Assembly (NCBI RefSeq): GCF_027257195.1
Contig: NZ_JAPDFS010000007.1
Location: 34,530-98,529, forward strand
Source: Halorubrum sp. F4
GTDB taxonomy: Archaea > Halobacteriota > Halobacteria > Halobacteriales > Haloferacaceae
Length of the DNA: 64,000 nt
Direction: 5' to 3'
The position numbers and the translations under genes are program-made. Numbering within the stretch: position 1 is the first letter of the stretch; every line of letters begins with the position of its first letter. The notes under the pieces are model-generated. The model was not told the origin of the DNA and made no database searches. It worked only from the letters and a program-made list of their open reading frames with translations. Positions 7,150 to 63,942 of the stretch are shown here, one piece after another.

Positions 7150-7180
7150 TCCAAATCACTTCGAAGGATCCTCCATGGTG

Positions 7181-42392: not shown

Positions 42393-42682
42393 ATGCCGCA
42401 ACCGTGGAATCGTCGTCGGGTGCTTCAACATAGTGGTACAATCGGAATACTAGGTCTTACAGGCTGTCTAGGTGGCTCAAGCACGAACTCATGGGATATT
42501 GATGACCCAGTAGCAGTGGCATCAGCACAACAATTTAACTCACCAGGATGTAGCTGTTGCGAGCAGTATGCATCATATCTTCGTGAGAATATCACTGGTG
42601 ACCTCTCAGAGACCGTACCGGATGATATCCAAGCAGTAAAGCAGGAATATGGGATCCCCGAAGACCTCCAGAGCTGTCACAC
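42393..42682 (+). pseudogene. DUF411 gene, 5' half (interrupted by IS copy 1)
   Basis: From ATG 42393: MPQPWNRRRVLQHSGTIGIL, a Tat/lipoprotein signal with LTGC, then QQFNSPGCSCCEQYASYLRE and IPEDLQSCHT. The CSCC and SCHT sites are the copper-binding signature of DUF411 proteins. The frame is cut at 42682 by the ISH8-type element, and the hybrid frame stops at 42695 inside the IS. The missing C-terminal half lies on the opposite strand at 63728-63942, with the 10-bp duplication GCTGTCACAC at both ends. Confidence 0.92.
42673..42682 (+). repeat. 10-bp target duplication of IS copy 1 (left side)
   Basis: GCTGTCACAC directly before the left IS end. Its partner, as GTGTGACAGC, is at 63933-63942 next to IS copy 2, not at the right end of copy 1. 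Confidence 0.85.
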
Positions 42683-44084
42683 CATCTGTCTTTAGTTAAG
42701 CGAGAAACCGCGAGATAGCGGCGGCTTATCGAGGCATCTTTCGGAAGGAATGAGGAAGTCCAGTCTGTGCACGACAAGGACTCCTCATCTCGAATTATGC
42801 GTCGACTCACTACACTGTTTCCCTCTGAGTTCCTCGAAGAGCACGCCGAGGAACTCGGCGTGGTCGAACGTGACCGCAAGCTCCAGATCCCTGCCTTCGT
42901 CTGGACATTCGTGTTCGGCTTCGCCGCAGGCGAAAGCCGAACACTCGCCGGGTTTAGACGCTGTTACAACTCTACTGCCGATGAGACGATCTCTCCGGGT
43001 GGATTCTATCAGCGGTTGACACCGACGCTTGCAGAGTATCTCCGCGACCTCGTCGAGCGCGGTCTCGACGAGGTCGCTGTTCCTAACGCTGTTGACGCTG
43101 ATATCGACCGATTTAGAGACGTGATGATCGCTGATGGAACGGTGTTGCGGTTACACGAATTTCTCTCAGACCAATTCGAAGCCCGCCACGAGGAGCAGGC
43201 TGGAGCGAAGCTCCACCTGCTCCACAATGCCACAGAGCAGACGATTGAACGGCTCGATACTGCTAACGAGAAAACGCACGACAGCACCTTGTTCAAAACA
43301 GGGCCGTGGCTTGAGAATCGCCTCGTGTTGTTCGATCTTGCCTACTTCAAGTACCGCCGGTTTGCGCTGATCGACGAGAACGACGGCTACTTCGTGAGTC
43401 GGCTGAAGCAGAACGCAAACCCGGTGATTACGGCAGAATTACGGGAATGGCGCGGCCGCGCCATTCCCTTAGAGGGCAAGCAGCTCCGAGCTGTTCTCGA
43501 TGACCTTGACCGGAAATACATCGATGTGGAGGTCGAAGTCGAATTCAAACGGGGGCCGTACAATGGGACACAGTCGCTGGATACGAAGCGATTTCGCGTC
43601 GTCGGCGTCCGCAACGAGGACGCCGACGACTACCACCTGTACATGACGAATTTAGCTAGGGAGGAGTTCTTTCCGGCGGATTTAGCGGAGATCTACCGCT
43701 GTCGGTGGGAAGTTGAGTTGCTGTTCCGGGAGCTGAAGACGCAGTACGAATTGGACGAGTTCGACACGAGTGACGAACACGTGGTGAGGATCTTATTGTA
43801 CGCAGCGCTGCTGTCGCTGCTTGTAAGCCGCGATCTGTTGGATCTAGTCACTGAGCAGGCGGATGATGAGCTTGTGTTTCCGACAGAGCGCTGGGCGGCG
43901 ACCTTCCGGTCGCACGCCCAGCTCATTCTCCACGAACTCGGTGAGTTCCTCGGCTACTCACCGCCGCCGCTGCTCGACCGGCTGATCGAAGACGCTCAAA
44001 AGATCCACCAGCAACGACCAATCTTACAAGAGACGCTCGCTACCGCTACACAACCGAGGTGTGAGGCTTAACTAAAGACGGATG
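42683..44084 (+). mobile_element. ISH8-type insertion sequence (IS4 family), 1402 bp
   Basis: Terminal inverted repeats CATCTGTCTTTAGTTAAGC (left) and GCTTAACTAAAGACGGATG (right) match over 19 bp with one mismatch. The length (1402 bp), IS4-type transposase and 10-bp target duplication match ISH8-group elements of haloarchaea. The right flank (AGTCATCCAC, 44085-44094) does not repeat the left flank, which indicates recombination after insertion. Confidence 0.93.
42797..44071 (+). CDS. IS4-family transposase (ISH8 group)
   Basis: A 424-residue transposase starting MRRLTTLFPSEFLEEHAEEL. DDE residues: D in VMIADGTVLRLHE, D in LVLFDLAYFKYRR, and E in the YREK motif YRCRWEVELLFRELK. Length is normal and the frame is intact, so the element could be active. 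ATG 42797 is preferred to GTG 42767 because family members begin MRRLTTLFPSEFL. Confidence 0.93.
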   Translation: MRRLTTLFPSEFLEEHAEELGVVERDRKLQIPAFVWTFVFGFAAGESRTLAGFRRCYNSTADETISPGGFYQRLTPTLAEYLRDLVERGLDEVAVPNAVDADIDRFRDVMIADGTVLRLHEFLSDQFEARHEEQAGAKLHLLHNATEQTIERLDTANEKTHDSTLFKTGPWLENRLVLFDLAYFKYRRFALIDENDGYFVSRLKQNANPVITAELREWRGRAIPLEGKQLRAVLDDLDRKYIDVEVEVEFKRGPYNGTQSLDTKRFRVVGVRNEDADDYHLYMTNLAREEFFPADLAEIYRCRWEVELLFRELKTQYELDEFDTSDEHVVRILLYAALLSLLVSRDLLDLVTEQADDELVFPTERWAATFRSHAQLILHELGEFLGYSPPPLLDRLIEDAQKIHQQRPILQETLATATQPRCEA

Positions 44085-44202
44085 AGTCATCCACAATGAC
44101 GGTCGAGTTTAGAGGGGCAGCGAACGTTGTTTTGACGCCGCTCGTATTTCAAAGCCCGACTAAGCGATAGCTTTGTACTAGCGGATAGAATCACGTGAAG
44201 TA

Positions 44203-44451
44203 ATGAGTAGAGGTGGAGGTGACCCCGTTGGATTGGTTATTGGGCTTGTCGTCGGAAATTTTGCGTACCTGTTATTCACCCTCATTCTATCGATGATAAT
44301 CGGTGTTGCCCCGGCAGACATTTTCTCCGGGCCGTTCTCTGGTGCAGCGAATAGTCTCGTGATGGGATGGGTTGCTATCGGTGCGTTGTTGGGTGTGATT
44401 GACGTGTTGGCCGTCGTCGGGTTCATATCGTCGCTAACCAGTGGCTGGTAA
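44203..44451 (+). CDS. small two-helix membrane protein, 82 aa
   Basis: Starts MSRGGGDPVGLVIGLVVGNF and has two to three hydrophobic helices (YLLFTLILSMIIGVAPADIF, LVMGWVAIGALLGVIDVLAV). No family recognised. Stands alone about 120 bases after the IS. Confidence 0.55.
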   Translation: MSRGGGDPVGLVIGLVVGNFAYLLFTLILSMIIGVAPADIFSGPFSGAANSLVMGWVAIGALLGVIDVLAVVGFISSLTSGW

Positions 44452-44722
44452 TCTAACCAGGATCTCAAGCGTTCGTGAGGCCCTGTGAGCTACTGCTCCA
44501 CATCTAACTCCCGCGTTCTCGGGCATCTCACCATCTTCCGTACGGCCACCAGAAGTCAGTGTTGCGAGCATCGTCGATAGCGATCCGCGAGCACTCTAAC
44601 CCCTTGTCCCTTCGTGGATCTGTCTTCTTCTCGGTAAACCATCGGTGTGAGAAGGATCCGTTCGAGTTTGTCTGATGGAGGTGGTTCTGAAAGTCACGTT
44701 ACGCCCGCTCCGTTCGTTCACG
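44452..44722. other. intergenic, no gene seen
   Basis: About 270 bases with no open frame of haloarchaeal composition and no clear repeat. Confidence 0.4.
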
Positions 44723-45028
44723 ATGGCACAACCTTCCAAAGCCGAAATACAATCTATGACAAAGGAACCGATTGAGGTACTCGACGACCTGGCCGACCAG
44801 GTCGCCGATGAGTTCGAGGCGTATAGACAGCCGGACGAATTCAAGGATGTCTCGCTCGTGATCGAGAACAGCGACGAGGAGCGTCCGACGCTGATCGTCC
44901 ACGTCGATAGGGAGGATGCGGAGTCCCTTGCCGACCGTATTGATGAGTTCCTCCGCGAGCACGGTGCTCGTACTGAACGGGAACGACACTCAGCTACGGA
45001 TGTCCGCGTGTTAGCGACGGTCGACTGA
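44723..45028 (+). CDS. hypothetical acidic protein, about 101 aa
   Basis: From ATG 44723: MAQPSKAEIQSMTKEPIEVL, then DDLADQVADEFEAYRQPDEF, VSLVIENSDEERPTLIVHVD and LADRIDEFLREHGARTERER. It looks like an alpha/beta sandwich with an acidic helix. ATG 44756 (MTKEPIEVL) is an alternative start. No family recognised. Confidence 0.6.
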   Translation: MAQPSKAEIQSMTKEPIEVLDDLADQVADEFEAYRQPDEFKDVSLVIENSDEERPTLIVHVDREDAESLADRIDEFLREHGARTERERHSATDVRVLATVD

Positions 45029-45112
45029 CACCGCCCCTCCAATTTTTCGACTGACTGCAAGCACCGCTGAAGGGCCCTATCTTCACTTCCGAGCAAGGGG
45101 GTCCCGACCGCT

Positions 45113-45808
45113 TCAGCTCAGGTAGTCAATCTGTGCAGACAGATACTCTTGGAGAGCGGTGACCGTTTCTTCTGAGACAGCTGAGGCCCCGAAGTCACTC
45201 CGAAATCCGTGTTTGAGTTCGTCACTCTCCAAGATCTCCAGACCACGCTCAAGTTGCTCCCGGAGCTCATCGTCGTCCCCTCGCCGCAGGTGGGGTGTGA
45301 CAGCGTTGAGGTCGCTCTCTTCTGCGACCGCCAGGACGTCCCGAAGGTCCGTTTCTCTGCCGCTGTGGAGCTTTGCCGCCACGAGGACGGCCCCATCGAT
45401 CACTCTGGCTGTCGTCGTCACTGTGCCTCCGCTCACCTCCTGTTGGTGGCTGTGGTCGTACAGGTAGTCGAACGACCACTGTGCCTCCGTCTGGCGACAC
45501 GCGAGTCCGTTCACCAGGAGATCGAAGCCGATCGGCTGCTGCGGCGTGAGCCGCTTCTCGTACTCGATTACTTCGGTGTCGTAGAACCATTCTTTGGCGT
45601 GGCTGTCCGTTTTCTCGAATCCCCGCTGTTCGAGGAACTCGACGAAGTCAGCTTTGGAATCCGGCGCGACGACGATATCGAGGTCCGTGGAGAAGCGAGC
45701 ATTGAATGCTGAGACAGCGTAGCCGCCAACAAGAACGTACTCGTGGCCCTCTTTGGTGAGCTCCTCGAGCAGTTCGATGAGCGCGTCACTTCGGTTGTTG
45801 AAGCTCAT
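45113..45808 (-). CDS. AbiEii-like nucleotidyltransferase (toxin candidate)
   Basis: A 231-residue protein starting MSFNNRSDALIELLEELTKE. The nucleotidyltransferase motif is VLVGGYAVSAFNARFSTDLD followed by IVV: GG, then S-T-D-x-D. IGFDLLVNGL holds the third acidic residue and VLVAAKLHSGRETDLRDVLA the helical part. AbiEii-type enzymes act as toxins with an AbiEi-like winged-helix antitoxin. Here the gene overlaps the upstream winged-helix gene by ATGA. Confidence 0.75.
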   Translation of the reverse strand: MSFNNRSDALIELLEELTKEGHEYVLVGGYAVSAFNARFSTDLDIVVAPDSKADFVEFLEQRGFEKTDSHAKEWFYDTEVIEYEKRLTPQQPIGFDLLVNGLACRQTEAQWSFDYLYDHSHQQEVSGGTVTTTARVIDGAVLVAAKLHSGRETDLRDVLAVAEESDLNAVTPHLRRGDDDELREQLERGLEILESDELKHGFRSDFGASAVSEETVTALQEYLSAQIDYLS

Positions 45809-46479
45809 GGCTGCGCCCGTTCGGTCTCTCGATACGTGACGCCGAGGTCAAGGTCCTCGTACATCCGGTCGAGCATCGCCAGCGCCGACTGGAACTGGGC
45901 GTAGTTCTCGCGCATGTACTCGATCGTCTCTGCTCTCGGTATCACCGGGTACCCTTCGACGTGCTCGATATCGAGTGACGCGCGTGGCTCGAGGACCATT
46001 TGTAGCGGTCCGCTAAGCTCGTCTCGGGGCTGTCGTTCGAATGCGGTCGGGAGGTCGAAGGACTCGAAGAACCCCTCCCAGGCGTCGACGTCCTGCTCAC
46101 GAACAGCCAGGAACAGTGGATAGTCGTTGGGCTCGCGACCGACTTGGTAGCCGCCCTGAGTCCACACGTAGACGGCGTCGATCCGCGTGAACGCGAACGG
46201 CCAGTCACCGAATTGTGGGATGACGTATGTTTCCTCGATGGAGGGTGGACTGACGCCAGCGCTGGCAGCGACGAGCTCGAGCGCTGCGTCGCGTACGCGC
46301 TCGTCGACTACAGTGAGGCCGTCATCATAGGAAACGTAGCCTGCCTCTTCCAGCCGATTGACGGCCTGTCTCACTGTCTCGTAGGGCGTGTGGAGGTGTT
46401 GGGCGACACGGCGGATGGAGTCACCACTCTCGATGGCGAGGATAGTCTGTGCCGCCGTGTCGTCGAGAACCTCATACAT
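45805..46479 (-). CDS. winged-helix partner of the nucleotidyltransferase (AbiEi-like)
   Basis: A 224-residue protein starting MYEVLDDTAAQTILAIESGD. It has a helix-turn-helix at about 10-60 (SIRRVAQHLHTPYETVRQAV, NRLEEAGYVSYDDGLTVVDE). The rest is a mixed fold (YVIPQFGDWPFAFTRIDAVY, YPLFLAVREQDVDAWEGFFE), as in antitoxins of nucleotidyltransferase modules. The stop overlaps the toxin start. It probably represses its own promoter. ATG 46479 chosen; longer frames have no haloarchaeal composition. Confidence 0.72.
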   Translation of the reverse strand: MYEVLDDTAAQTILAIESGDSIRRVAQHLHTPYETVRQAVNRLEEAGYVSYDDGLTVVDERVRDAALELVAASAGVSPPSIEETYVIPQFGDWPFAFTRIDAVYVWTQGGYQVGREPNDYPLFLAVREQDVDAWEGFFESFDLPTAFERQPRDELSGPLQMVLEPRASLDIEHVEGYPVIPRAETIEYMRENYAQFQSALAMLDRMYEDLDLGVTYRETERAQP

Positions 46480-46613
46480 CTGGTAGTTACCAATAATCCG
46501 GTAACAGCTAAAGGTCTTACTAGAAGACGGGGTAGAACGGCTCTGTCTGAGTTCTATCACTCGGGACTCTCCCATTGAATGACTGAAGAATGTAGATCTC
46601 ATAGCCAATCTGC

Positions 46614-46638
46614 ATAATGTGGATAATGTAGATAATGT
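46614..46638 (+). repeat. three tandem 9-bp repeats (ATAATGTRG)
   Basis: ATAATGT recurs at 46614, 46623 and 46632 with exact 9-base period. Related pairs ATTATGTAG (46714) and ATTGCGTAG (46723) follow. Iteron-like. Confidence 0.7.
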
Positions 46639-46766
46639 AAATTGGGCTTCTTCAATTGGTTCGTGTGGGTGGCAAAGATTGTGATGAATGCGTATGAAAT
46701 GCTGATTATCTAAATTATGTAGATTGCGTAGGGTCGACGGTGATTATGCCAATTGAGATTGTGCCA

Positions 46767-46798
46767 ACAATCTACGTAATGTACAAAATGTAGATTGT
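46767..46798. repeat. inverted repeat ACAATCTAC / GTAGATTGT
   Basis: Perfect 9-bp arms at 46767-46775 and 46790-46798, 14-base centre containing TAATGTACA. Candidate ParB-like binding site. Confidence 0.65.
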
Positions 46799-46972
46799 GT
46801 AGATGGCGTACGCAATCTGTCTGGCACAGAATTAAGATGGACGAGCATCATTGACCGCGTATGACCAGTGCAAAACGTACATTATCGACAAAACTCGCGC
46901 AACCTTCAACATCTACCCAATGTACATTACCTACAAAATGTACAAAATCCGCTTCTTACGGGGTGCTGAGCT

Positions 46973-47845
46973 ATGAGTGCTGACGAGTTTGAAGGGCTCC
47001 CCGGAGCAGCTGTCTCGTTGCTCAAGGGAGGGGTAGGGAAATCCACGATCGCGCTCAACATCGCTGATCGACTCGCTGCTCGTGGCCATGAGACGGTACT
47101 ATTGGATCTGGATAAGGACGGGCACATGACGACCCAGTTGGGATACGACGATGCGTACGACCGAGATGCGAACCTCGGTGACGCCCTTATCGATGGTGAG
47201 GACCCCGAAGACCTGCTTATCGAGACGGACTTCGGCGTTCACCTACTCCCGTCGAGTAACGAGCTCGAGAACGTCGAGACGAGGCTGAAGGACGAACGGT
47301 TCGCAGACGTGAAGCTTCGACGGAACGTCGTCGATCCGCTCATTCAAAACGGATACGACTACGTGATAATTGATGCCGCAGGCGGCCGTGGGAAACTCTC
47401 CGACAATGCCCTCATCGCCGTCCAGCGCGTCATAATCCCGCTAATCCCGCGTGCTGGCTCGATCAACGGCCTCAATAAGATGATTGAACGCCAGATCTCC
47501 CCAATCCGGCAGAATATCGGGTTGGATATCCTCGCAGTCACTCCGAATATGATTCGCGAAACAATGGGACAACGCAACGAGCATCGGACTCTCGTTGAAA
47601 ATCTCAACCGGGAGTTCGGTTCATTCGTCCCCGAGTACGCTCGTGTGGACCCGGAGATCTTCGATGCCCTCGATGATTCGGAACGCACCATCGATAGTAT
47701 TCCGAAGCCAGGGATTCGCGAACGGACCGCGATTTCTCGCGCGTTCAAGCAAGGAATGCCGGTCTCGGAGTTCGACGAAGATTGCGACCAGATCCCGAAT
47801 TTCGATCACTTAGCGGACCTCGTGGAGGAACACAGCCATGCCTAA
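46973..47845 (+). CDS. parA: ParA-family partition ATPase
   Basis: A 290-residue protein starting MSADEFEGLPGAAVSLLKGG. Deviant Walker A LKGGVGKSTIALN (about 17-29), switch I LLDLDKDGHMTTQLG, and Walker B YVIIDAAGGRGKLSDN are visible. ParA ATPases move plasmid copies apart with a DNA-binding partner. It overlaps the next gene by 8 bases (ATGCCTAA) and is flanked on both sides by TGTACATTA-type repeats. Confidence 0.92.
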   Translation: MSADEFEGLPGAAVSLLKGGVGKSTIALNIADRLAARGHETVLLDLDKDGHMTTQLGYDDAYDRDANLGDALIDGEDPEDLLIETDFGVHLLPSSNELENVETRLKDERFADVKLRRNVVDPLIQNGYDYVIIDAAGGRGKLSDNALIAVQRVIIPLIPRAGSINGLNKMIERQISPIRQNIGLDILAVTPNMIRETMGQRNEHRTLVENLNREFGSFVPEYARVDPEIFDALDDSERTIDSIPKPGIRERTAISRAFKQGMPVSEFDEDCDQIPNFDHLADLVEEHSHA

Positions 47846-48323
47846 TGAGGACGACCGTTTCGGGGACGTCGCTGAACAGCTCAAACAAACGGAGGAAGGA
47901 GCCGAATCGGATGACGACGAACGTACTGACGCCCAGGATGAACCGCAACCGGATGAAGAGATAACTACTGAGGACACAGAGTCGGAGACTGAGTCCATTC
48001 CTGAGCAGGATGAGGAGGATGTGGACGAATCCACCGGTGGACCGGCCTTCTCCTTTGATGAGACCGATATGCACGGCTTCTATGTCCGGGAGGACACGTG
48101 GGATGGCGTCACCCGGATGCGATCATCGGTAACTGCTGCGTGTTCTATGTTTGATGTTCCCGAGTTTGAGGGAAGAGAGTTTCAAGATGCGTGTCTCCGG
48201 GTAATTGCGGACCACGGTGATGAGGTTGCCCTCCAGATCCTCCGGGAGCGTGGTATCGAAGCCGATGAGGAACGTGTTCAGGAAGTTGTTGAGATGCTGA
48301 GCGAGCAAGCTACGAACGACTAA
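47838..48323 (+). CDS. ParA partner (putative ParB-like protein)
   Basis: A 161-residue protein starting MPNEDDRFGDVAEQLKQTEE. Residues 1-70 are extremely acidic and disordered (runs of DDE, PDEE). The C-terminal 90 residues are an ordered domain (GFYVREDTWDGVTRMRSSVT, EFQDACLRVIADHGDEVALQ) that might bind DNA. Translational overlap with parA implies the centromere-binding role, but no classical ParB motif is present. Confidence 0.7.
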   Translation: MPNEDDRFGDVAEQLKQTEEGAESDDDERTDAQDEPQPDEEITTEDTESETESIPEQDEEDVDESTGGPAFSFDETDMHGFYVREDTWDGVTRMRSSVTAACSMFDVPEFEGREFQDACLRVIADHGDEVALQILRERGIEADEERVQEVVEMLSEQATND

Positions 48324-48704
48324 CATTGGATTTGGCTGATTTTCCTCACCATTCAAATTTTGTGCGCATTGTACATTATGCAGATTGTGTAGCAAGCTAT
48401 CTGCTTGCAGTCTTGCGATTATTCTCAGAACCGGGTCCGAACGGCGGTCGCGGTTTTAGTATATCGGTATATGGTTTATACCGTTGGTCAAATCCGAATT
48501 TCAGGGGATAGAACCCTTCTATCATCGGAAAAATGGTTATGAGATTTCTGTACTCGATGGTCCTGATTACGCCGGTAATCACGACCACTTTGAAGTACCC
48601 CGGCGCCGTCGGTGAAGCACGAATGCTGCAACCGCCTCACGACGACGCTTCCCCCAGGGTAGAGGACCCGAGACCGGGGCTGCAGGACGGTGGAGGGCCG
48701 GTGA
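48324..48704. other. intergenic region with a parS-like repeat
   Basis: TGTACATTATGCAGATTGTG (48370-48389) repeats the motif of the region upstream of parA. A short inverted repeat GGTATA/TATACC (48466-48482) lies further right, near a TATA-like sequence. No small gene seen; no tRNA or obvious att site for the integrase. Confidence 0.5.
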
Positions 48705-49937
48705 ATGCCTGACCGAGCGCTTTCGACGCCGCTCGACGACAGCTTCGAGCGCTACCTCCAAGACAAGGGGAAAGGCCGGGGCGGCGGCGGTGGGAACTAT
48801 CGACGTAACGCTGCACGCGAGCTCGAACGGTTCGCCGAGTGGGCCGCCGGCGACCGCGGCGCCGACGACTGGACCGGGATCGCCGACGACGTCGGCCGCG
48901 AGCCGACCTTCGACGATCTCGACGAACGCGTGTTCCGGGAGTACGCCCGACATCTCGGTGGAGATCGGGGACTCAAGCAGAACACAGTACAAACCTATTA
49001 CCGCTATATCTCTGCGTGGTGTGGCTGGTGCGTCAACGAGGGATATCTTGAGGCCCACTACGCGCAGCGAGCGAGTGCGATGGCGCCGCTGCCGGAGGAC
49101 GACGGTCGCAAGCCCGGCGACCAGCAGGCCTGGACGTCCGAACAGCGCCACGCCCTCACCCGTCACGTCGACGAACGGGCCCGCGACGCCGTCGAGGCGT
49201 ACACGACACTCCCGGAGGATACTGATCCCCTCGACAAGCAGCGAGCACGCTACGCGGCGTTGAAGGCGGCTCGTGACCGGGCGCTGGTGTTTGTCCTCGC
49301 GTACACCGCCGTCCGCGTTGGCGAACTCCTCCGCGATCCGAACGACCCGCGCCGGCGCGGCGTCCGCTGGGAGGACCTCTCCGTCGACGACGGGAGTATG
49401 GACGTCTACCGGAAGAAACAGCAATGGGATGCCGCGAGCCTTCCCGATCCGGTGATCTCGCCGTTGCGAAGCTATCGCCAGTTGATGGACCCACCAACGG
49501 AGCGCTGGCCGGTGTTTCCGACGTTCGACCAACGGACGCTCGCAGGGCTCGTCCGGGAAAACCTCGCCGAACGAGGGGAACGCCCAGAAGCAATCATTGA
49601 ACGCCGTGCGGAGTACGCTCGCGACCTGCTGCTGGCGCTCGATGTGGACATTCGGCCGCCGTCGATCACGACGGACGGCGCACGGTCGATTCTCCAACGA
49701 CTCTCGGAGGCCGCGGAGATCGACATCGACCATCCGAAACACGATTATCTTGCTCCGCACGGTGGCCGTCGTGGCATGGGCGAGGTTCTGGTCCGGGCAT
49801 TCGGATATACTGTGGCGGCCCGATATCTCGATAATTCTGAGGAGATGGTTCGTGAGCGGTACTCGCATATCGAGGCTGGTGAGTTAGGTGATGTCGCTAC
49901 TGAGGCCCTTGAGGAGATCGATAGTGTACCGCAGTAA
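48705..49937 (+). CDS. tyrosine recombinase/integrase
   Basis: A 410-residue recombinase. N-terminal SAM-like core-binding domain (about 10-130: DSFERYLQDKGKG, TVQTYYRYISAWCGWCVNEG). Catalytic domain: Arg I in YTAVRVGELLRDP (about 200), H-x-x-R in HGGRRGMGE (about 350) and the Tyr nucleophile in MVRERYSHIE (about 388). Typical of haloarchaeal plasmid/provirus integrases. It lies near parA, with no visible att site. Confidence 0.9.
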   Translation: MPDRALSTPLDDSFERYLQDKGKGRGGGGGNYRRNAARELERFAEWAAGDRGADDWTGIADDVGREPTFDDLDERVFREYARHLGGDRGLKQNTVQTYYRYISAWCGWCVNEGYLEAHYAQRASAMAPLPEDDGRKPGDQQAWTSEQRHALTRHVDERARDAVEAYTTLPEDTDPLDKQRARYAALKAARDRALVFVLAYTAVRVGELLRDPNDPRRRGVRWEDLSVDDGSMDVYRKKQQWDAASLPDPVISPLRSYRQLMDPPTERWPVFPTFDQRTLAGLVRENLAERGERPEAIIERRAEYARDLLLALDVDIRPPSITTDGARSILQRLSEAAEIDIDHPKHDYLAPHGGRRGMGEVLVRAFGYTVAARYLDNSEEMVRERYSHIEAGELGDVATEALEEIDSVPQ

Positions 49938-49970
49938 CTTATTTCGAGTGAGAGGGGTAGACCGTCGCGT

Positions 49971-50624: not shown

Positions 50625-50652
50625 GAGTTGTGGTTGTGATCGTGTCTCGTGG

Positions 50653-52572: not shown

Positions 52573-52576
52573 AGTG

Positions 52577-53518: not shown

Positions 53519-53547
53519 GGGGGAACCACCCCTACGCTGGCAGGGTC

Positions 53548-55342: not shown

Positions 55343-56731
55343 ATGCAGGCGACGATAATCGACGGAGTTCTTGAATCCCTTCGTATCGGTGTCGGATTTC
55401 TCTGGACGGCGGCGTGGGCGATCATCATGGGCCTCACGATTACGAGTCTGGTCCAGGTCTACGTCTCGAAGGAGCGGATGGCACAGGTGCTGGGTGAGGG
55501 CGATCTAACTGGACTTACCAAGGCGACTGTGTTCGGAGCAGCAAGCAGTGGCTGTAGCTTCGGCGCCGTCGCCATCGGGAAGGGCCTGTTCAAGAAGGGG
55601 GCGCACGCGGTGAACTTCCTCGCGTTCATGTTCGCGTCGACGAACCTCATCGTCGAACTAGGGCTGATGATTCTCATCCTGCTTGGCTGGGAGTTCCTCG
55701 TCGCGGAACTGCTCGGCGGCCTGATTCTCATCGCCGTCATGGCCGCCATCGTCCACCTTACGCTTCCCGAAAACCTGTTTAACGAAGTCCGCGAGAAGCT
55801 CAACGAGCGCGACCGCCAGGCGGGCGTCACGGAAGATCCCACCTGCGGGATGGAGGGGAAAGACGAGTACACGCTCACGACCGACGGCGGTGAGACGCTC
55901 AAATTCTGCTCGGAGGGCTGTATGGAGACCTATCGCCAGGAGACGTCGAGTAGCGGCGGGTGGCGTGACGAGTTGCTGTCGTGGGGTGGCTGGTACAAGG
56001 TCGGGAATCAGTACCGCAAGGAGTGGTCGATGATCTGGAAAGACATCGTCGCCGGCTTCCTTATTTCTGGGTTCGTCATCGTCTTCGTCCCGCAGTGGGT
56101 GTGGAACACGCTGTTCATTCAGGGCGACGGCCTGCTCGTGACTGCCGAGAACGCCGTCATGGGCGTCATCATCGCCGTCCTCAGTTTCGTCGGCAGTATG
56201 GGCAACGTCCCGTTCGCCGTCGCGCTGTGGGGCGGTGGCGTCAGCTTCGCCGGGATCATCGCGTTCGTCTACGCCGACCTCATCACCGTGCCCGTGCTGA
56301 ACGTCTACCGGAAGTACTACGGCTGGAAGATCATGCTGTACATCCTTGGCGTCTTCTTCGTGACGATGGCGTTCACTGGCTTCCTCATGGAGTTGCTGTT
56401 CGACGCCCTCGGCATCGTACCAGATCTGGCCGGTGGCGAGACGGCGACCGAACAGACGTACTTCGAGCTCAACTACACGTTCTACCTCAATATTATCGCC
56501 TTCGCGCTCTCCGGGTTCCTCCTGTATGTCTACCGACGTGGAATCGGCGCACCAGGTCAGTATCGTGATCCGGTGTGTGGCATGCGGACCGACGATGAGG
56601 GGCCGAGTGCGTCCAATGATGGGATGACGTACTATTTTTGCTCGAAGACCTGTAAGCGGGCATTCGAGGAAGAGCCCACGGAATTTGCTGATCAAAGCCC
56701 GCAGATAACAAACCACGATCACGATCACTGA
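55343..56731 (+). CDS. DUF318/SO_0444-type metal permease with two YHS domains
   Basis: A 462-residue protein. Two sets of four to five helices; the first half contains GAASSGCSFGAVAIGKGLFK and ASTNLIVELG, typical of the DUF318/ArsP-like permeases that export Cu/Zn or arsenicals. A YHS metal site sits in the central loop (DPTCGMEGKDEYT, LKFCSEGCMETY, about 168-200). A second is at the C-terminus (DPVCGMRTDDEG, YYFCSKTCKRAF, about 408-440). The His-rich tail is NHDHDH. It could pull Cu from the cytosol to the exporter. Confidence 0.85.
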   Translation: MQATIIDGVLESLRIGVGFLWTAAWAIIMGLTITSLVQVYVSKERMAQVLGEGDLTGLTKATVFGAASSGCSFGAVAIGKGLFKKGAHAVNFLAFMFASTNLIVELGLMILILLGWEFLVAELLGGLILIAVMAAIVHLTLPENLFNEVREKLNERDRQAGVTEDPTCGMEGKDEYTLTTDGGETLKFCSEGCMETYRQETSSSGGWRDELLSWGGWYKVGNQYRKEWSMIWKDIVAGFLISGFVIVFVPQWVWNTLFIQGDGLLVTAENAVMGVIIAVLSFVGSMGNVPFAVALWGGGVSFAGIIAFVYADLITVPVLNVYRKYYGWKIMLYILGVFFVTMAFTGFLMELLFDALGIVPDLAGGETATEQTYFELNYTFYLNIIAFALSGFLLYVYRRGIGAPGQYRDPVCGMRTDDEGPSASNDGMTYYFCSKTCKRAFEEEPTEFADQSPQITNHDHDH

Positions 56732-56856
56732 TAGATGTACTGTGGTTCATCCGCTGTGAAGCACTTCATCATCGCACCTTCAATCCGCAATTGTCACACC
56801 TGTCGCGCCAAAATTGATTGTATGAGCAGTCAGATATCGAAACAAGGGGATGTCAT

Positions 56857-57438
56857 ATGAACCAACGTCCAGCGGATACCGTCGTTGGTGTGCTCCTTGG
56901 GTTCGTCCTCTTGGCTGGCGGACTACTCAGTTGGCGGGCCTATCAACAGCGTCGCGCTATCGAGCAGTCGATGGGGCCGATGATGGACTCGTCTATGGGG
57001 GCGATTCACGGTCCAGATCCTCTCTGGTACGTGGTTGGAACCCTTCTGGTCGCAGGCAGTATCGGTGGCATCTATTACGTGGTTCGAGGGAATCTCATCG
57101 ATTCGACAACCGACTCAGCGGATCACATCGACCCCGATCAGGTATCGGAGGCAACGCCTACATCGATAGACGATGACGCCTCGCCGGCGACGCCTATCAA
57201 TCCTGAATCGGATCCGCAAGCGCGCGTTCTCGATCTCTTACCGGATGATGAACGACGCGTCCTTGAACCCGTCCTGAACTCGCCTGGAATCACGCAGATC
57301 GAACTTCGGGATCGATCTGAGTTCTCAAAGAGTAAAGTGAGCCAGACCGTGAGTTCACTCGAGGAGCGCGGGCTGCTGTATCGGGAACGACAGGGTCGAA
57401 CCTACCGCGTGTATCCGAGTGATGACCTGCAGAACTAA
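56857..57438 (+). CDS. membrane-anchored winged-helix regulator (DUF7343-like)
   Basis: A 193-residue protein starting MNQRPADTVVGVLLGFVLLA. Two transmembrane helices (about 8-25 and 60-80) bracket a Met-rich external loop (SMGPMMDSSMGAIHGPD) that could bind copper. The C-terminal cytoplasmic part is a winged helix (LLPDDERRVLEPVLNSPGIT, SEFSKSKVSQTVSSLEERGL). A one-protein membrane sensor and transcription factor is plausible (inference). ATG 56857 is preferred. Confidence 0.82.
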   Translation: MNQRPADTVVGVLLGFVLLAGGLLSWRAYQQRRAIEQSMGPMMDSSMGAIHGPDPLWYVVGTLLVAGSIGGIYYVVRGNLIDSTTDSADHIDPDQVSEATPTSIDDDASPATPINPESDPQARVLDLLPDDERRVLEPVLNSPGITQIELRDRSEFSKSKVSQTVSSLEERGLLYRERQGRTYRVYPSDDLQN

Positions 57439-57471
57439 CAGACGTAGAAATTCATACTAACACTACCCATC

Positions 57472-58176
57472 ATGTCACAAGCAACACTCGAAACTGATCG
57501 CATTAGCCGGGTTCTCAAGTCAAGCACGTGGCTCAATCTCCTCCTCGCCGCACAGTTGATCGCCGGGTTGGTGTACGCATATTTCACAGGAGATATGGGG
57601 AGCCGGTGGACCCATTTCGTCCTTCCATTTATTTGGTTCACCGCCTCAGTCTGGGTGATCTGGCACACTCGACCTGTAACGAAACGTCGAGTGTATCGTA
57701 TTGGTGCCGCACTTGTCGTTGCTCTATATCTCATCGTGATGTTTTATTTTTCAGGATTACTTGGACCGAGCACCTCTCATTTCGGGCAGCTCACTGGACC
57801 AAGCGGCTTCGGAATAACGTGGGGTCGATCTTTGGGATGGAGTCCGGTCTTCGTCTATACAGGTGACCTGATCACGGTCTCGCTCATTCCTTACCAAGCG
57901 GTTGGCCTGTTCGCGCTGGCGTATCTCGTCTATGATGCATTGCTTGATTTCTCGCAGTCGGCAGTCGGAGGAATAGTCGGGATTGTGGCGTGCCCTGCCT
58001 GCGTTAGCCCGTTGTTTGCCGTACTACTTGCAGGCGGACTGAGTGGTTCTTCAACGATGTTATTGCTTGGTGCGTATGGCTACGAAATTGCGACCGTTCT
58101 GTTCCTCATGACAATTGGAATCCTCTACCATCGTCAGGCACTCACGAGGCAGTATCACCAGTTCCGAGGGAACTGA
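57472..58176 (+). CDS. six-helix membrane protein
   Basis: A 234-residue protein starting MSQATLETDRISRVLKSSTW. About six helices. The motif GIVGIVACPACVSPLFAVLL (Cys-Pro-x-Cys in a helix, about 165-180) is noteworthy as a possible thiol or metal site. It follows the membrane regulator by 33 bases on the same strand. I do not recognise a characterised family. Confidence 0.75.
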   Translation: MSQATLETDRISRVLKSSTWLNLLLAAQLIAGLVYAYFTGDMGSRWTHFVLPFIWFTASVWVIWHTRPVTKRRVYRIGAALVVALYLIVMFYFSGLLGPSTSHFGQLTGPSGFGITWGRSLGWSPVFVYTGDLITVSLIPYQAVGLFALAYLVYDALLDFSQSAVGGIVGIVACPACVSPLFAVLLAGGLSGSSTMLLLGAYGYEIATVLFLMTIGILYHRQALTRQYHQFRGN

Positions 58177-58448
58177 TCCATCTCGTTCGTGGTCAGCAAT
58201 ACCCGAGCCTCCCTCGCCGCCTGAACCGTGGTTATTGTCTGGATCGCCGCAATGAGGTGAACAGTCTCGACGGATCCCCTTTGCTCTCACCATTCCTCTG
58301 ATCCTTTCGAATTCGGCAGGTATGAACGATCCCGTCAGTAGAAAACGTTTAGATGGCGTTATAGACGTTCTTGAACGCTCTCCTGTTTGAGTTCACTCCC
58401 ACGAAGATAACTCCGAACCCACCGTATGACTACTTGAGGCGAAAAACA

Positions 58449-58766
58449 ATGACCAACCGAAACCTCGGACGATGGCTGCTCGTGGTGCTCGCGATTGTCG
58501 GACTCGCGTTTGCCGCCCCGGTAGTTAGCGCACACGGTGACGAACCGATCCAGGGGAACGAGACGGCAGCTGAAGGGACGCCAGCCGATGGTAGTGCAGC
58601 AGACTGGGCGGCCTGGATGGAAGGTCACATGACCGACTACATGGGCCCGAATGCCGTTGACGAGATGGAAGCGCACATGGGCGTGACCGTCGACGAGATG
58701 GCCCAAGATATGGCGGACGACAATCACACCGCGACGGGGATGAACGGACAGGGGTACGGCTGCTAA
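58449..58766 (+). CDS. secreted Met-rich small protein
   Basis: A 105-residue protein. Signal peptide MTNRNLGRWLLVVLAIVGLA, then FAAPVVSAHGDEP. The mature part is acidic with repeated Met and His (WMEGHMTDYMGPNAVDEMEA, HMGVTVDEMAQDM) and ends NGQGYGC. Such exported Met/His-rich proteins often bind Cu(I). ATG 58449. Confidence 0.72.
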   Translation: MTNRNLGRWLLVVLAIVGLAFAAPVVSAHGDEPIQGNETAAEGTPADGSAADWAAWMEGHMTDYMGPNAVDEMEAHMGVTVDEMAQDMADDNHTATGMNGQGYGC

Positions 58767-58829
58767 CGATCCCTGTTCGGATCCTCGTCTGACACGATAG
58801 ATATTCGACTTACTGACTCAACGATCACA

Positions 58830-59177
58830 ATGACACACTACACCAACACTCTCGGGCGGACGACTCGTCGAATCGCAATACTAGCGGTTCCGCTGTTGAT
58901 TGTAGCAACGGGCACCGCAGCGGCTCACGGTGGTGGAGGCTACGGCGGCGGTATGATGGGTAGCGGCGGTTGGGGGGTCTTCAGCGGTGGAATGGGCCTC
59001 TGGAGCTTCCTTTGGATGGGGCTCCTAATCGTCGTCCCGCTCTATCTCGTCTACTCACTCCTCAACAGAGATTCTGAGAGGAGTGATAGTCGGCCGCTTT
59101 CGGTTCTTCGTGAGCGTTACGCTCGCGGTGAACTCTCCGATGAAGAGTTCGAACGTCGACGAAAGCAACTCGAGTAG
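58830..59177 (+). CDS. SHOCT-tail membrane protein, 115 aa
   Basis: Signal-like helix (RIAILAVPLLIVATGTAAAH), a Gly/Met-rich external patch (GGGGYGGGMMGSGGWGVFSG), a second helix (WMGLLIVVPLYLVYSLLN) and the C-terminal SHOCT motif LRERYARGELSDEEFERRRK. SHOCT tails are short helical motifs often at the end of membrane proteins. One of three in this locus. Confidence 0.8.
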   Translation: MTHYTNTLGRTTRRIAILAVPLLIVATGTAAAHGGGGYGGGMMGSGGWGVFSGGMGLWSFLWMGLLIVVPLYLVYSLLNRDSERSDSRPLSVLRERYARGELSDEEFERRRKQLE

Positions 59178-59282
59178 TGCCCATGACCGAAATAGAAGGA
59201 GCATCGTCGAGAAAAAATTCTCGTCTGCCAGTTGGGGCGACGGGACCGAACGCTTAAGTGCGTAAACAGGATACAGTATTAC

Positions 59283-59699
59283 ATGAGTTACACAATACAA
59301 ACCAAGATTGATGGAGAGTTCGACGATGTCGTCGACGCAACGAATGCCGCGCTCAAAGACGAGGGATTCGGTGTTCTCTGTGACATCGACATTCAGGCGA
59401 CGCTCAAGGAGAAACTCGGTGAGGAGTTCCGCCAGTATCGCATCCTCGGTGCGTGCAATCCTCCGCTGGCATACGAAGGGTTGAGTGTAGAAACTGAACT
59501 CGGTGCGCTCTTGCCCTGTAACGTCATCGTCTACGAGAACGATGACGGCGTCATCGTGGTGAGTGCGGTCGACCCGGAACAGTTAGTCGGGATCGCTGAT
59601 AACGACGCGCTTGACTCCGTCGCGACCGAGGTCAGCGAACGATTCGACCGCGTACTGGCAGCCGTAACTGACGAGTTCGGATCCGCATCGGAGGCCTGA
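59283..59699 (+). CDS. DUF302 domain protein
   Basis: A 138-residue protein starting MSYTIQTKIDGEFDDVVDAT. It contains DATNAALKDEGFGVLCDIDI, TLKEKLGEEFRQYRILGACN, PPLAYEGLSVETELGALLPC and NVIVYENDDGVIVVSAVDPE: the DUF302 fold, common near copper and sulfur genes. The conserved Cys (GACNP, LLPCN) are present. ATG 59283 preceded by a TATA-like sequence (TACAGTATTAC). Confidence 0.9.
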   Translation: MSYTIQTKIDGEFDDVVDATNAALKDEGFGVLCDIDIQATLKEKLGEEFRQYRILGACNPPLAYEGLSVETELGALLPCNVIVYENDDGVIVVSAVDPEQLVGIADNDALDSVATEVSERFDRVLAAVTDEFGSASEA

Positions 59700-59705
59700 T
59701 CTCTG

Positions 59706-60059
59706 ATGGCATCATCGGATCAACTGGATACGACGACGATACTGCTCATCGTCCTCGGAGCGTTCATCCTCCTTCCCTTGCTCACAATGGGTATGGGGTT
59801 CGGTGGGATGATGGGATACGGAGGAATGATGGGCCAGTACGGTACCACAGGTGGTTGGTGGCCCCTCATCGGGATGCTCGTCCCGGTCATCTTCCTCCTT
59901 GCGCTTCTGGGCGGTGGATATCTCATCTTCCGGCGGATGAGCGAGACACAGACGTCTCATAATCCCGCGATGGAAGAGTTACGTCTGGCGTACGCTCGTG
60001 GCGATCTCACGGACGAAGAGTTCGAAGCCCGACGAGAAAAGCTCGAACAATCAGAGTGA
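59706..60059 (+). CDS. SHOCT-tail membrane protein, 117 aa
   Basis: Starts MASSDQLDTTTILLIVLGAF. Two helices, a Gly/Met-rich loop (MGMGFGGMMGYGGMMGQYGT) between them, and a C-terminal SHOCT motif (LRLAYARGDLTDEEFEARRE). Starts 6 bases after the DUF302 stop, so co-transcribed. The Met-rich loop suggests Cu(I) binding. Confidence 0.82.
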   Translation: MASSDQLDTTTILLIVLGAFILLPLLTMGMGFGGMMGYGGMMGQYGTTGGWWPLIGMLVPVIFLLALLGGGYLIFRRMSETQTSHNPAMEELRLAYARGDLTDEEFEARREKLEQSE

Positions 60060-60286
60060 CCACTACCCAAACCGCGTTTCACCCGTTTGAACACCTGCGG
60101 ATCGACTCGAGGGTATCGAAACCAACCGTTCGGCAGCATCGTTCCGTTACATCGAAATGGTGTGCTCGATTCAGCATATGGTTATGAGTAGTAATGGGAA
60201 CAAACGACAAGTTCGGAGTGAGTCACGTCCGAAGTCTTCGCACCAGTATCGCGCGTAGCTACCCACCGAAGAATGATCCAGACAAC

Positions 60287-61042
60287 ATGACACATCACAG
60301 CCGACGTCAATTCTTAGGCATTGTCGGTGCCAGCGCAGTCGCCAGCACCGGCTTTGCTCAGTCAGCGAACGCACAGGAGACGCCCATCGTGGAGATGGGA
60401 AACAATTACTTCGACCCAATCGGCCTACGTGTTGATCCCGGGACAACCGTTCAATTTGAACTCGCAGCGGGGGCACATTCCGCTACGGCGTACGCAGATC
60501 GTATTCCGGAGGGCGCTTCCGCCTTCGATAGTGGGACGATCTCAGACGGGAGCTTCGAATATACGTTCGAAACGCCAGGGACGTATGATTACTACTGCAT
60601 CCCGCACAAGTCGATTGGGATGGTCGGACGGATCGTAGTTGGCAGTCCTGGCGGACCGGCAGAGGAGGATTCAATCCCGGATGGAGAGGTCCCATCGAGT
60701 GAGGCGATTGTTGACCAGGGTACAGTCGCCTACGGCTCAAGCAGCGATGGAAGCGGGAATACTGGTGGTGGAATGATGGGACGAGGTGGTTCTGGAATGA
60801 TGAGTGGCCGCAACGGAGGTGGAGTTGGAGGGCTACCAGCTGTTGGTGGCGTACTCGGAATGCTGGGCGTTCTCGGTGGCGGGCTCTACTGGCTTGGAAA
60901 CCAAAAATCTCCTCAATCGACTACCGACGACTCAGCCAGAAAAACGCTCCAGAACCGCTATGCCAGGGGCGAAATTGACGAGGAGGAGTATAGACGTCGC
61001 CGTGAGCGATTAGATGCTACTGATGAGGACATCTCCAACTGA
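60287..61042 (+). CDS. halocyanin with C-terminal membrane helix and SHOCT tail
   Basis: A 251-residue protein starting MTHHSRRQFLGIVGASAVAS, a Tat signal ending about NAQ (30). The plastocyanin domain (about 32-125) has H in GAHSATAYAD and the C-x2-H-x4-M loop YYCIPHKSIGMVGR. A Gly/Met linker (GGGMMGRGGSGMMSGRNGGG) leads to a helix (VGGVLGMLGVLGGGLYWLG) and a SHOCT motif RYARGEIDEEEYRRRRERLD. An unusual fusion: an external copper site joined to a cytoplasmic helical tail. Confidence 0.88.
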   Translation: MTHHSRRQFLGIVGASAVASTGFAQSANAQETPIVEMGNNYFDPIGLRVDPGTTVQFELAAGAHSATAYADRIPEGASAFDSGTISDGSFEYTFETPGTYDYYCIPHKSIGMVGRIVVGSPGGPAEEDSIPDGEVPSSEAIVDQGTVAYGSSSDGSGNTGGGMMGRGGSGMMSGRNGGGVGGLPAVGGVLGMLGVLGGGLYWLGNQKSPQSTTDDSARKTLQNRYARGEIDEEEYRRRRERLDATDEDISN

Positions 61043-61177
61043 TTGCCACCGTGAGAGGGTGAACTCACCGGGGTCAAGTGATTCGGGGATTAGAGAATAC
61101 CGCCCTCACCGATACCTTTGATTTCAGAACGATCCCGTGACCTGTTTTGTTCCATTTATGACTGATTTCTCTTGTGA

Positions 61178-61930
61178 TCAACTCGCCTGTGTGGCTCGGT
61201 AGTAAACACCAATTGCGAGCACGGCTACGAGGAGAAGATATCCAGTAGCCCACACCAACGAGAGAGCCGTATCTACGTCGGTTGTGAGTCCGGTATCGAC
61301 CATTACACGGACTGGCCAATAGCCCGGAAAGAGTTTCATCCACCAATCAGGTTCAGATTGAATAAACAGCGGATCCTGAAACAGTCCGATATCGAGCATC
61401 GGGAGAATCAGCATCAGCCACATCCCGGCTAGGCGGTTGAAGACGGCCCCGACGAGCATCCCGATGAGACCATACGTGACCGAGACGACGAGCATCGCTG
61501 CGACGAACCACCAGAGATACTCGGGCTGGAAATCGACGAGCATCACACCAACTGAGACACCGGTGACGATGAGAGTAATTGCTGCGAGAACCCCAAACCG
61601 GGCAGCGATTACCTGCCATGCACGATAGCCAGCGACTGCCAGACGACCGTCCGTGTCTTTGGCTTCTCGCATCAGGAACAACCCGGCGAGTCCGGCGATG
61701 AGAGCACTCGTAATCGGCGTCATGATCACGCCGTGGACCTCAGGCATCCCCCGCATGACCGTCGCCGTCTCACCGTCGACGAGCGTCCGAACCGGCATCT
61801 CGACGTCCTGGGTGACTGCGAACGCCAACGTGATGAACGAGACCGGTAGGACGACCAGTAGAGCGACGAGGACGTAGTTACGCGCCTGTTCTTTGATGCC
61901 GATCGAGAACGCCGTTGTCGTACGGTTCAT
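61178..61930 (-). CDS. ABC-2 transporter permease (second)
   Basis: A 250-residue protein starting MNRTTTAFSIGIKEQARNYV. Six helices, including ALLVVLPVSFITLAFAV, SALIAGLAGLFLMREA and YLLLVAVLAIGVYY, as in ABC-2 exporters. Start overlaps the stop of the first permease (ATGA). With the ATPase at 62657 it forms an operon ATPase-permease-permease. Substrate may be copper-related, as in NosFY-type systems, by context only. Confidence 0.82.
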   Translation of the reverse strand: MNRTTTAFSIGIKEQARNYVLVALLVVLPVSFITLAFAVTQDVEMPVRTLVDGETATVMRGMPEVHGVIMTPITSALIAGLAGLFLMREAKDTDGRLAVAGYRAWQVIAARFGVLAAITLIVTGVSVGVMLVDFQPEYLWWFVAAMLVVSVTYGLIGMLVGAVFNRLAGMWLMLILPMLDIGLFQDPLFIQSEPDWWMKLFPGYWPVRVMVDTGLTTDVDTALSLVWATGYLLLVAVLAIGVYYRATQAS

Positions 61931-62664
61931 GCGGACCACCCACCACTGGTGCGCATCGTCACTCCGAACACTACGGTGACGAGCACGAGCAAGACGAGCA
62001 GGTATCCGGCAACGAAGCCGAGGTCGCCCGTCGTATATGTACCTTGGAACATCGCCTCCTGAAGGAGTTCCTTCGGATGATAGAGCGGGAAGTATTCCAC
62101 GAACTCAGGAATGTCAGCAGCCAGCGGGCTGTCGCCACTGAGGAACGCGTCCATCATCGCGAGGAACACCACGACGAGCGAGCCTTCGAACAGTCGCGGA
62201 AGGAGTGCACCGACGAGCGCGCCAAGAAACGCATAGACGAGGCCGGCGAGGACGAGGAATACGAACGTCAGGACAGGGGCTTCCGGTGAAATCGTCAGCC
62301 AGAGCACGCCGTAGTTCACGGCAGCCACGACGACCGTGACCCCTCCGAGCGTCGCTAATCGAGTCGCAAGCAGTGTTCGGGGTGGATAGCCTGTCTGAAC
62401 GAGTCGTCGATCGGCTGCACGCGCACTAATCATCTGGGCGAGTCCCATCAGGCCGGCGATGATGGCGACACCGAATATCGCTCCGAGGAGGCGACCCAGA
62501 TCGATCGGAATCGCCTCAACTGTCGGCATAGTTGGCAACCCCGCCATCGCTTGTCCCCAGCCTTCGATAACGACAACCGGAAGGAGGAGTGCTAAGACGA
62601 CATTCAGGGGGGTCCTGAGGAAGGTGGAGACGTTCGTCCGGATCCCCGTTTGAATTCTATTCAT
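61927..62664 (-). CDS. ABC-2 transporter permease (first)
   Basis: A 245-residue protein starting MNRIQTGIRTNVSTFLRTPL. Six helices (VVLALLLPVVVIEGWGQAM, LLGAIFGVAIIAGLMGLAQ, FVAGYLLVLLVLVTVVFGV). Shares the layout of the next permease and is probably its paralog. Start overlaps the ATPase stop by 8 bases (ATGAATAG). Confidence 0.82.
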   Translation of the reverse strand: MNRIQTGIRTNVSTFLRTPLNVVLALLLPVVVIEGWGQAMAGLPTMPTVEAIPIDLGRLLGAIFGVAIIAGLMGLAQMISARAADRRLVQTGYPPRTLLATRLATLGGVTVVVAAVNYGVLWLTISPEAPVLTFVFLVLAGLVYAFLGALVGALLPRLFEGSLVVVFLAMMDAFLSGDSPLAADIPEFVEYFPLYHPKELLQEAMFQGTYTTGDLGFVAGYLLVLLVLVTVVFGVTMRTSGGWSA

Positions 62665-63388
62665 CGGCCTTTCTCCTCCGTTCACCGGTCGTCGCTTCGG
62701 TCTCACTTTCCCGCTCAGTCACGTCGTAGACGTGTCCATCACGAACCTCGTAGATACGGTCGAGACGGCTCTGCTCCTCGATCAAGTGTGAAATCATTAC
62801 GACAGCTGTTCCGTCGGCAGCAAGTTCGTCGGCGAGGTCCCAGAAGATGAGATATGTCTCCCAGTCGAACCCGGTGTAGGGCTCGTCTAGCATGAGGACG
62901 TCCGGATCATGCATTAGGGCGATACTGAGATTGATTTTTTGTCGGTTTCCACCGCTGAGTTGGTCGATTCGATAGTCAAGGTACTGCTCGAAATCGAGTT
63001 TCGATGCGAATCGGCGTTTGGCCTCGTCGATTTCTTCGGCGGTCATTCCGTATCCGGAACCGAACAGGCGGAACGTCTCTGTGACCGTCAGGCGGTCGTA
63101 AAGCAGTGGTTCTTGTGGACACCAGCCAACCGTCCCTGTTCGTTCAACTGCTCCGGAATCCTGCTTGAGGACGCCGACGAGGATGTTCATAAGCGTGGAT
63201 TTCCCCGAACCGTTCCCCCCGACGATTCCGACGATTTCTCCTGCTCGGATTTCCAGATTGGCACCGGTGAGGACGGGAACCGATCGTGTAAATGGGAGGT
63301 TTGACCCGTACGTTTTTTCAATCTCATCAGCACGGACGAGTACCTCGCTGGTGGTAGCCTCTGTCGTGGAGGTTGTGGGCGCTTCCAT
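62657..63388 (-). CDS. ABC transporter ATPase
   Basis: A 243-residue ATPase starting MEAPTTSTTEATTSEVLVRA. Walker A GGNGSGKST (about 56-64), Q-loop CPQEP, signature LSGGNRQK, Walker B VLMLDEPYTGFD, H-loop ISHLIEEQ. It drives the two permeases downstream. In the pre-inversion arrangement it would lie next to the intact DUF411 gene. GTG 63400 is an alternative start. Confidence 0.9.
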   Translation of the reverse strand: MEAPTTSTTEATTSEVLVRADEIEKTYGSNLPFTRSVPVLTGANLEIRAGEIVGIVGGNGSGKSTLMNILVGVLKQDSGAVERTGTVGWCPQEPLLYDRLTVTETFRLFGSGYGMTAEEIDEAKRRFASKLDFEQYLDYRIDQLSGGNRQKINLSIALMHDPDVLMLDEPYTGFDWETYLIFWDLADELAADGTAVVMISHLIEEQSRLDRIYEVRDGHVYDVTERESETEATTGERRRKADE

Positions 63389-63727
63389 AGATGAATACAC
63401 ACGCTCCTCATTTACTGCGATTACTGTTTCAAATCTAAACTATCAGTAGCAACCCCGTGAATAATCAGAGATTGCATACAGAGCTGACGCTGGACTCAAC
63501 GTGTTAGATACCTCTTGATTTTCTGAATACTGTCTCCTATAAGCTGTTTCACAGTTTACACGGGAAAGCTTCTGAATTGGATCACCAACAAGCCAGAACG
63601 CGATACAAACCCGCTTCAAGACAGCTGTTGAAGTTTCGCGTTGAAAAAGATGAGACGCGCGAAGGTGTATCCGAACCCATAGAGAAGCCGTCTGAACATC
63701 AGTTGCAGATCTACTGTATCTCTGAAT
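63389..63727. other. intergenic, no gene seen
   Basis: About 340 bases between the ABC ATPase start and the DUF411 3' half. I see no supportable frame; the promoter of the ABC operon should be here, but no clear TATA. Confidence 0.4.
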
Positions 63728-63942
63728 CTATACCTCAGTGTACTCAGCTCCGGCTTTATCGCCGTCAATAGCGTATATGCTTAACGAGCCATCTTTCTCT
63801 CCACCCATCCCCGGTGTCCCAGATGGCATACCAGGGAGTGCAACTCCATCTATCGGTGGGTTTTCATCGAGAAGCCGGGCGATTACTTCGACCGGGACGT
63901 GTCCTTCTACGACGTAATCTGTGAGGACGAGTGTGTGACAGC
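63728..63942 (-). pseudogene. DUF411 gene, 3' half (next to IS copy 2)
   Basis: The minus strand reads SCHTLVLTDYVVEGHVPVEV, then IARLLDENPPIDGVALPGMP and SGTPGMGGEKDG, ending GDKAGAEYTEV and stop (TAG 63728-63730). SCHTLVxxxYVVEGHVP is the second conserved half of DUF411. It joins the 5' half at 42393-42682 in frame across the shared GCTGTCACAC. Now it has no start codon and lies 21 kb away in the opposite direction. Confidence 0.93.
63933..63942 (-). repeat. 10-bp target duplication (partner of 42673-42682)
   Basis: GTGTGACAGC on the plus strand, the complement of GCTGTCACAC, touching IS copy 2. Together the two copies prove that both DUF411 halves were once the flanks of one IS insertion. 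Confidence 0.85.

Follow-up and report, generated by a model that had tools for sequence, protein, structure and literature searches.

A DUF411 gene split by an ISH8-type insertion, and the possible flip of a 19,858-bp plasmid segment, in Halorubrum sp. F4

How did a single DUF411/CopG-type gene come to lie in two parts on opposite strands of a haloarchaeal contig, each part abutting the same kind of insertion sequence (IS)? The question is raised by a stretch of 64,000 bp from Halorubrum sp. F4 (the window), which covers positions 34530-98529 of a 98,529-bp contig (C57) in a 75-contig genome and ends together with that contig, 58 bp inside an ISH8-type element. An earlier note had proposed that a 21-kb inversion between two IS copies split the gene. 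We find that the gene was broken by an IS insertion, not by an inversion, the latter being rejected as the cause since the insertion alone suffices; as for the inversion itself, which would span the 19,858 bp between the two ISs, we put the chances at about even that it is real, perhaps with both isomers present.

The 5′ part of the DUF411 gene (42393-42682, plus strand, 96 amino acids), containing the CxCC motif SPGCSCC, ends in a 10-bp target repeat, a, GCTGTCACAC (42673-42682, plus strand), directly before IS copy 1 (42683-44084, plus strand, 1402 bp), and the truncated frame adds four residues to its 96 native ones and then meets a stop within the IS. A second copy of repeat a, read as GTGTGACAGC (63933-63942, minus strand), lies ahead of the 3′ part (63728-63932, minus strand) and adjoins the right end of the inverted IS copy 2 (63943-64000, minus strand); the 58-bp arms of the two copies are 100% complementary, and because only these 58 bp fall in the window, which ends with the contig, the rest of copy 2 is presumed. 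As had been pointed out, the right flank of copy 1 is no duplicate of its left one, but a different 10-mer, b, AGTCATCCAC (44085-44094, plus strand). Its partner lies outside the window at C57:56-65, where the contig opens with 55 bp of an IS left end followed by GTGGATGACT; the 10-mer predicted beyond copy 2 was thus found, on the condition that C57 closes on itself. Within the window, GTGGATGACT occurs only once, as the right flank of copy 1, and GCTGTCACAC three times against 0.17 expected, the third (45295-45304) being away from any IS. Chance could not plausibly account for two swapped matches of 10 bp.

Conditional on the same closure, swapped target repeats are therefore present at two inverted IS copies, and one of the two inversion junctions is assembled. 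The swap means that no single insertion originally had the DUF411 5′ part on one side and position 44085 on the other; the sequence was either truly inverted or wrongly joined. Judging from its IS ends, C57 most likely represents a plasmid that forms a circle of about 100 kb and consists of the contig and the unassembled remainder of IS copy 2; it carries two Orc1/Cdc6-type genes (C57:4928-5953 and 6583-7848) and a ParA-type gene, as expected for a plasmid. The GC skew of the region was too flat to give an orientation signal.

The uninverted order was found in relatives. Halorubrum trapanicum DSM 12287 harbors the same plasmid, its contigs C15, C18 and C24 aligning over 97,124 bp with no mismatches and one gap, and its locus of 18,583 bp matching at 100% throughout. 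Contig C18 corresponds to C57:55893-77211, the copA side, and continues, at 100% identity, into the DUF411 3′ part, followed by the segment in reverse (44085-63942 of the window, 19,858 bp) up to an ISH8-type element, IS-B; DUF411 is intact there, with one GCTGTCACAC, the exact joined sequence and the uninverted order through to AGTCATCCAC. IS-B is very probably flanked by repeat b on both sides, since C24 starts with eight of the ten bases of this repeat. Among 53 Halorubrum genomes, strain F4 included, 12 gave any match to the DUF411 5′ flank, and the full 583-bp flank occurred in five other genomes (H. trapanicum DSM 12287, H. halodurans Cb34, H. saccharovorum DSM 1137, H. amylolyticum ZC67 and Halorubrum sp. 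CSM-61), in all of which the junction was intact and uninverted. The remaining six had partial flank matches, and one of them (G031) was viewed for DUF411: at C21:53500-62000 it has a homologue, 87% identical over residues 1-82, that an independent ISH8-type copy interrupts at residue 82; this copy contains a 295-bp internal insertion, and its right flank is unmatched. This genome was rejected as a parallel split-gene case, its second DUF411 match being a 156-amino-acid open frame read as a paralogue, not the missing half. Four complete plasmids with DUF411 were viewed, and the uninverted order was observed in three, pNG600 and one each of Halobaculum roseum and Halobellus limi; two others, pCBA1232-02 and phalar01, had no DUF411 in the stretches viewed, and no complete plasmid record covered 80% of the intact junction. 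These comparisons bear out two further points of the earlier note, namely that the DUF411 halves join in frame, the uninterrupted joined sequence existing in real intact genes, and that undoing the inversion places the exporter and halocyanin genes on the copA side, as in the near-identical relatives.

Based on these data, a two-step history can be proposed. In the ancestor, a state that DSM 12287 still shows, DUF411 would have been intact, a lone ISH8-type element (IS-B) would have occupied AGTCATCCAC, and the genes would have run copA - DUF63 - DUF411 - ABC exporter - halocyanin - ParA. An identical IS then entered DUF411, where it duplicated GCTGTCACAC and left the protein with its first 96 native residues, a step that is established apart from which IS ends pair. 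Subsequently, homologous recombination with the oppositely oriented IS-B would have flipped the 19,858-bp segment, somewhat shorter than the 21 kb first estimated, with the outer halves of the two target repeats changing places. Since reversing the flip would leave DUF411 broken, the event is a rearrangement rather than a gene switch. As this archaeon is polyploid, the two orientations may be present side by side.

The mobile element fits the ISH8 subgroup of the IS4 family. Copy 1, with the ends CATCTGTCTTTAGTTAAG / CATCCGTCTTTAGTTAAG, has 5′-CAT ends and terminal inverted repeats (CATCTGTC... / CATCCGTC...), and encodes a 424-amino-acid DDE_Tnp_1 transposase (42797-44071, plus strand) matching PF01609 (E-value 3.1e-27) with a YREK motif, YRCRWEVELLFRELK, at residue 300; these features, together with the ISH8B-family annotation of a copy in H. 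trapanicum CBA1232 that is 88% identical, underlie the assignment, and they agree with the terminal consensus and description of the subgroup in the excerpted text of PMC2266710. With ISH8B of Halobacterium and the subgroup it shares the CAT ends, the DDE transposase with YREK and the 10-bp repeats seen at 12 of 18 related copies, and it differs in that copy 1 lacks matching repeats and in its length, 1402 bp versus the 1413 bp given for ISH8B in a passage of PMC10264941. In that survey of 18 full-length ISH8-type copies from six genomes, 12 had exact 10-bp repeats (two of them being one insertion in two genomes), one was offset by one base and five, including IS copy 1 itself, were unmatched; eight of the 18 came from three genomes of 3-4 contigs, with five matched and three unmatched. 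Another IS in the F4 genome, a 91% relative, carries matching repeats. A pattern scan for IS ends gave 13 end-like sites at ≤2 mismatches, six of them exact; further diverged copies may be missed, because the whole-genome DNA searches scored 40 of 214 candidates in this genome and 40 of 193 in DSM 12287.

Whether the swapped repeats reflect a real IS-IS inversion or an error of assembly turns on these six exact ends. Three are left ends (at DUF411-5′, the C57 start and C12:88331) and three right ends (at 44085, DUF411-3′ and the start of contig C12), yet a single full copy accounting for two of them was assembled, and the four partial ends are identical across the 55-58 bp visible; so a wrong join by the assembler would give the identical sequence. 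In the artefactual scenario, the IS in DUF411 has matching repeats and nothing is inverted, three identical copies having been collapsed and the DUF411 5′ part misjoined to 44085, while the true circle keeps the DSM 12287 order, which is also the repeat-consistent pairing of the ends. Short-read assemblers lacking long-range data are unable to pair such IS ends, and usually break at such repeats instead of crossing them. As to sequencing strategy, PMC4230888 describes 59 haloarchaeal drafts from 6-kb mate pairs and pooled libraries, a set that may or may not include strain F4. In the present assembly, the other IS ends were left broken whereas this repeat was passed through, and the remaining breaks fall where circular replicons would open anyway, both of which speak against an artefact. 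The ends imply three IS copies, which would fit two circles, with the internal copy being the assembled one, and the two broken copies appear to sit where C57 and the replicon of C12:1-88387 and DSM 12287 C13 need opening; that they lie exactly at the points where the circles must be cut supports a real inversion.

A number of observations weigh against the inversion. The evidence comes from a 75-contig assembly, and the circularity of C57 is read solely from IS ends. Of this identical three-copy IS only one copy was assembled in full, so that the sequences on either side of it may be a faulty pairing, and that copy is the one whose repeats do not match. C12 shows a doubtful join at the same repeat, where an IS end is followed by a 10-N scaffold join (C12:88388-88397) and no IS right end just beyond. 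No other swapped repeat pair occurred among the 18 surveyed copies. None of 221 matching complete plasmid records, from which near records may have been excluded, covered 80% of the region. The uninverted order is not universal either, because Haloprofundus pMHR1-1 has an intact DUF411 (88%) with the ABC-halocyanin block in the opposite orientation; other genes intervene between the two, the ParA-integrase part is not flipped, and the block there was flipped by some other route. Taken with the uninverted relatives, the swapped 10-mers make the IS-IS inversion proposed earlier our preferred reading, at about even odds, with an assembly artefact as a somewhat less likely one.

Two other routes to a true inversion were considered. 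IS-B could have transposed intramolecularly, replicatively or between sister strands, into DUF411 in such an orientation that the DNA in between was turned round, a single event that would account for the second copy as well as for the 19.9-kb flip and the swapped 10-mers. The DSM 12287 plasmid, with IS-B present and the DUF411 site empty, is the exact starting state for such an event, and the expected flanks a-IS-b and a′-IS-b′ match those found. The two-step and one-step routes in fact give the same sequence, with the DSM 12287 plasmid fitting as the ancestor of both; we favor the two-step one, since IS4-family elements are generally regarded as cut-and-paste movers and 12 of the 18 surveyed copies carry plain 10-bp repeats, with one more offset by one base, and consider the one-step route improbable. 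A dedicated invertible switch for copper genes is suggested by the exporter and halocyanin block near copA being bracketed by inverted identical repeats, with an integrase-like gene inside the segment; given that DUF411 is broken in both orientations and that no IS is present in DUF411 of the five relatives with an intact junction, we attach hardly any credence to it.

As to the gene that was lost, the intact DUF411 protein (164 amino acids, from the DSM 12287 contig) matched PF04214 at 78.7 bits (cut-off 27), and the 5′ part alone, taken from the window, matched no Pfam family. The intact protein also aligned across residues 50-146 (E-value 2.6e-16) with PDB 6wis/6wje, which we take to be CopG of Pseudomonas aeruginosa, and both share a Cys-x-Cys-Cys region and an SCHT...EGHVP region. 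The present protein differs in being archaeal, in an exported-lipoprotein-like N terminus (lipobox-like and Tat-like by eye in the 5′ part), and in that its gene is broken. CopG is described as a copper oxidoreductase in the excerpt of PMC8872213, which cites work on a tetranuclear copper cluster. The homology to 6wis and the copA/halocyanin neighborhood suggest that the haloarchaeal protein would bind copper. A protein search of the F4 genome returned the two DUF411 halves and one weak match (28% identity, E-value 7e-4) only.

The surrounding genes were assigned by Pfam. Upstream of the split gene are a copA-type heavy-metal P-type ATPase with two HMA stretches (38289-40901, plus strand; HMA, E1-E2_ATPase and Hydrolase) and, between it and DUF411, a DUF63 membrane protein (41116-42141, plus strand; PF01889). 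The inverted segment encodes the ParA-type ATPase (46973-47845, plus strand), an integrase-like protein (48705-49937, plus strand; Phage_int_SAM_5), a second metal P-type ATPase of 639 amino acids (50653-52572, minus strand), a halocyanin-like copper protein of the plastocyanin/azurin type (60194-61042, plus strand; Copper-bind), and an ABC exporter composed of two ABC-2 permeases (61178-61939 and 61927-62706, minus strand; ABC2_membrane_3) and an ATPase (62657-63400, minus strand; ABC_tran).

A second replicon was observed alongside this plasmid. The first 88 kb of contig C12 have an IS right end at 1-57 and an IS left end at 88331-88387, as does the whole of DSM 12287 C13, and C12:1-88387 probably represents another circular plasmid that was linked to other DNA through 10 N during scaffolding; the sequences flanking its IS ends (CCGGTCACTC / ATGTATCCGA) differ from each other. 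Beyond this join, the DNA on the right has a GC content of about 0.55 and occurs in four of the 53 Halorubrum genomes, this one included, and it is absent from both DSM 12287 and H. halodurans, a distribution that fits a mis-join and a true join alike. C12 and C13 share about 84.8 kb with two mismatches; C12 is longer by 3,581 bp, the exact spacing of two direct ISH8-end-like repeats (C12:30276 and 33857), and units of about 223 bp with ISH8-like ends, possibly miniature inverted-repeat transposable elements, lie at C12:33857-34079 and 61416-61638. The DSM 12287 counterpart of C57 bears two features that F4 lacks, an additional ISH8-type end at C57:4540 (repeat TACGGGATAC) and what is probably a further insertion, associated with an 8-bp repeat, at C57:55893-55900. 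Elsewhere, identity to DSM 12287 falls to 84-87% over a 3-kb stretch of contig C1, and the start of DSM 12287 contig C16 has its best long match in this genome at 78%. Near-identical plasmids on diverged genomes reflect either a very recent interspecies plasmid exchange or a strain or library mix-up.

ISH insertions and inversions in haloarchaeal genomes have long been described (PMC10264941, in part), and the excerpts of PMC10264941 and PMC7193027 cite Ng et al. 1991 for inversion isomers and ISH-associated inversions of Halobacterium plasmids. As far as those excerpts go, the present case resembles them in concerning rearrangement of a haloarchaeal plasmid where its DNA is repeated and rich in ISH elements, and differs in that the repeats are single 1.4-kb IS copies and in the existence of a near-identical plasmid that lacks the second copy. 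No title or abstract start among the open-access literature matches listed named this locus. The event is thus ordinary in kind, long known in haloarchaeal plasmids, and this locus is a new, well-documented instance. It provides a clean before-and-after pair, in which the plasmids of two species are free of substitutions across about 97 kb while IS insertions, and possibly a 20-kb flip, set them apart, so that IS activity outpaces point mutation here; and it illustrates, for draft genomes of haloarchaea, that swapped target repeats at a contig end can flag a true inversion or else a mis-join that would otherwise go unnoticed.

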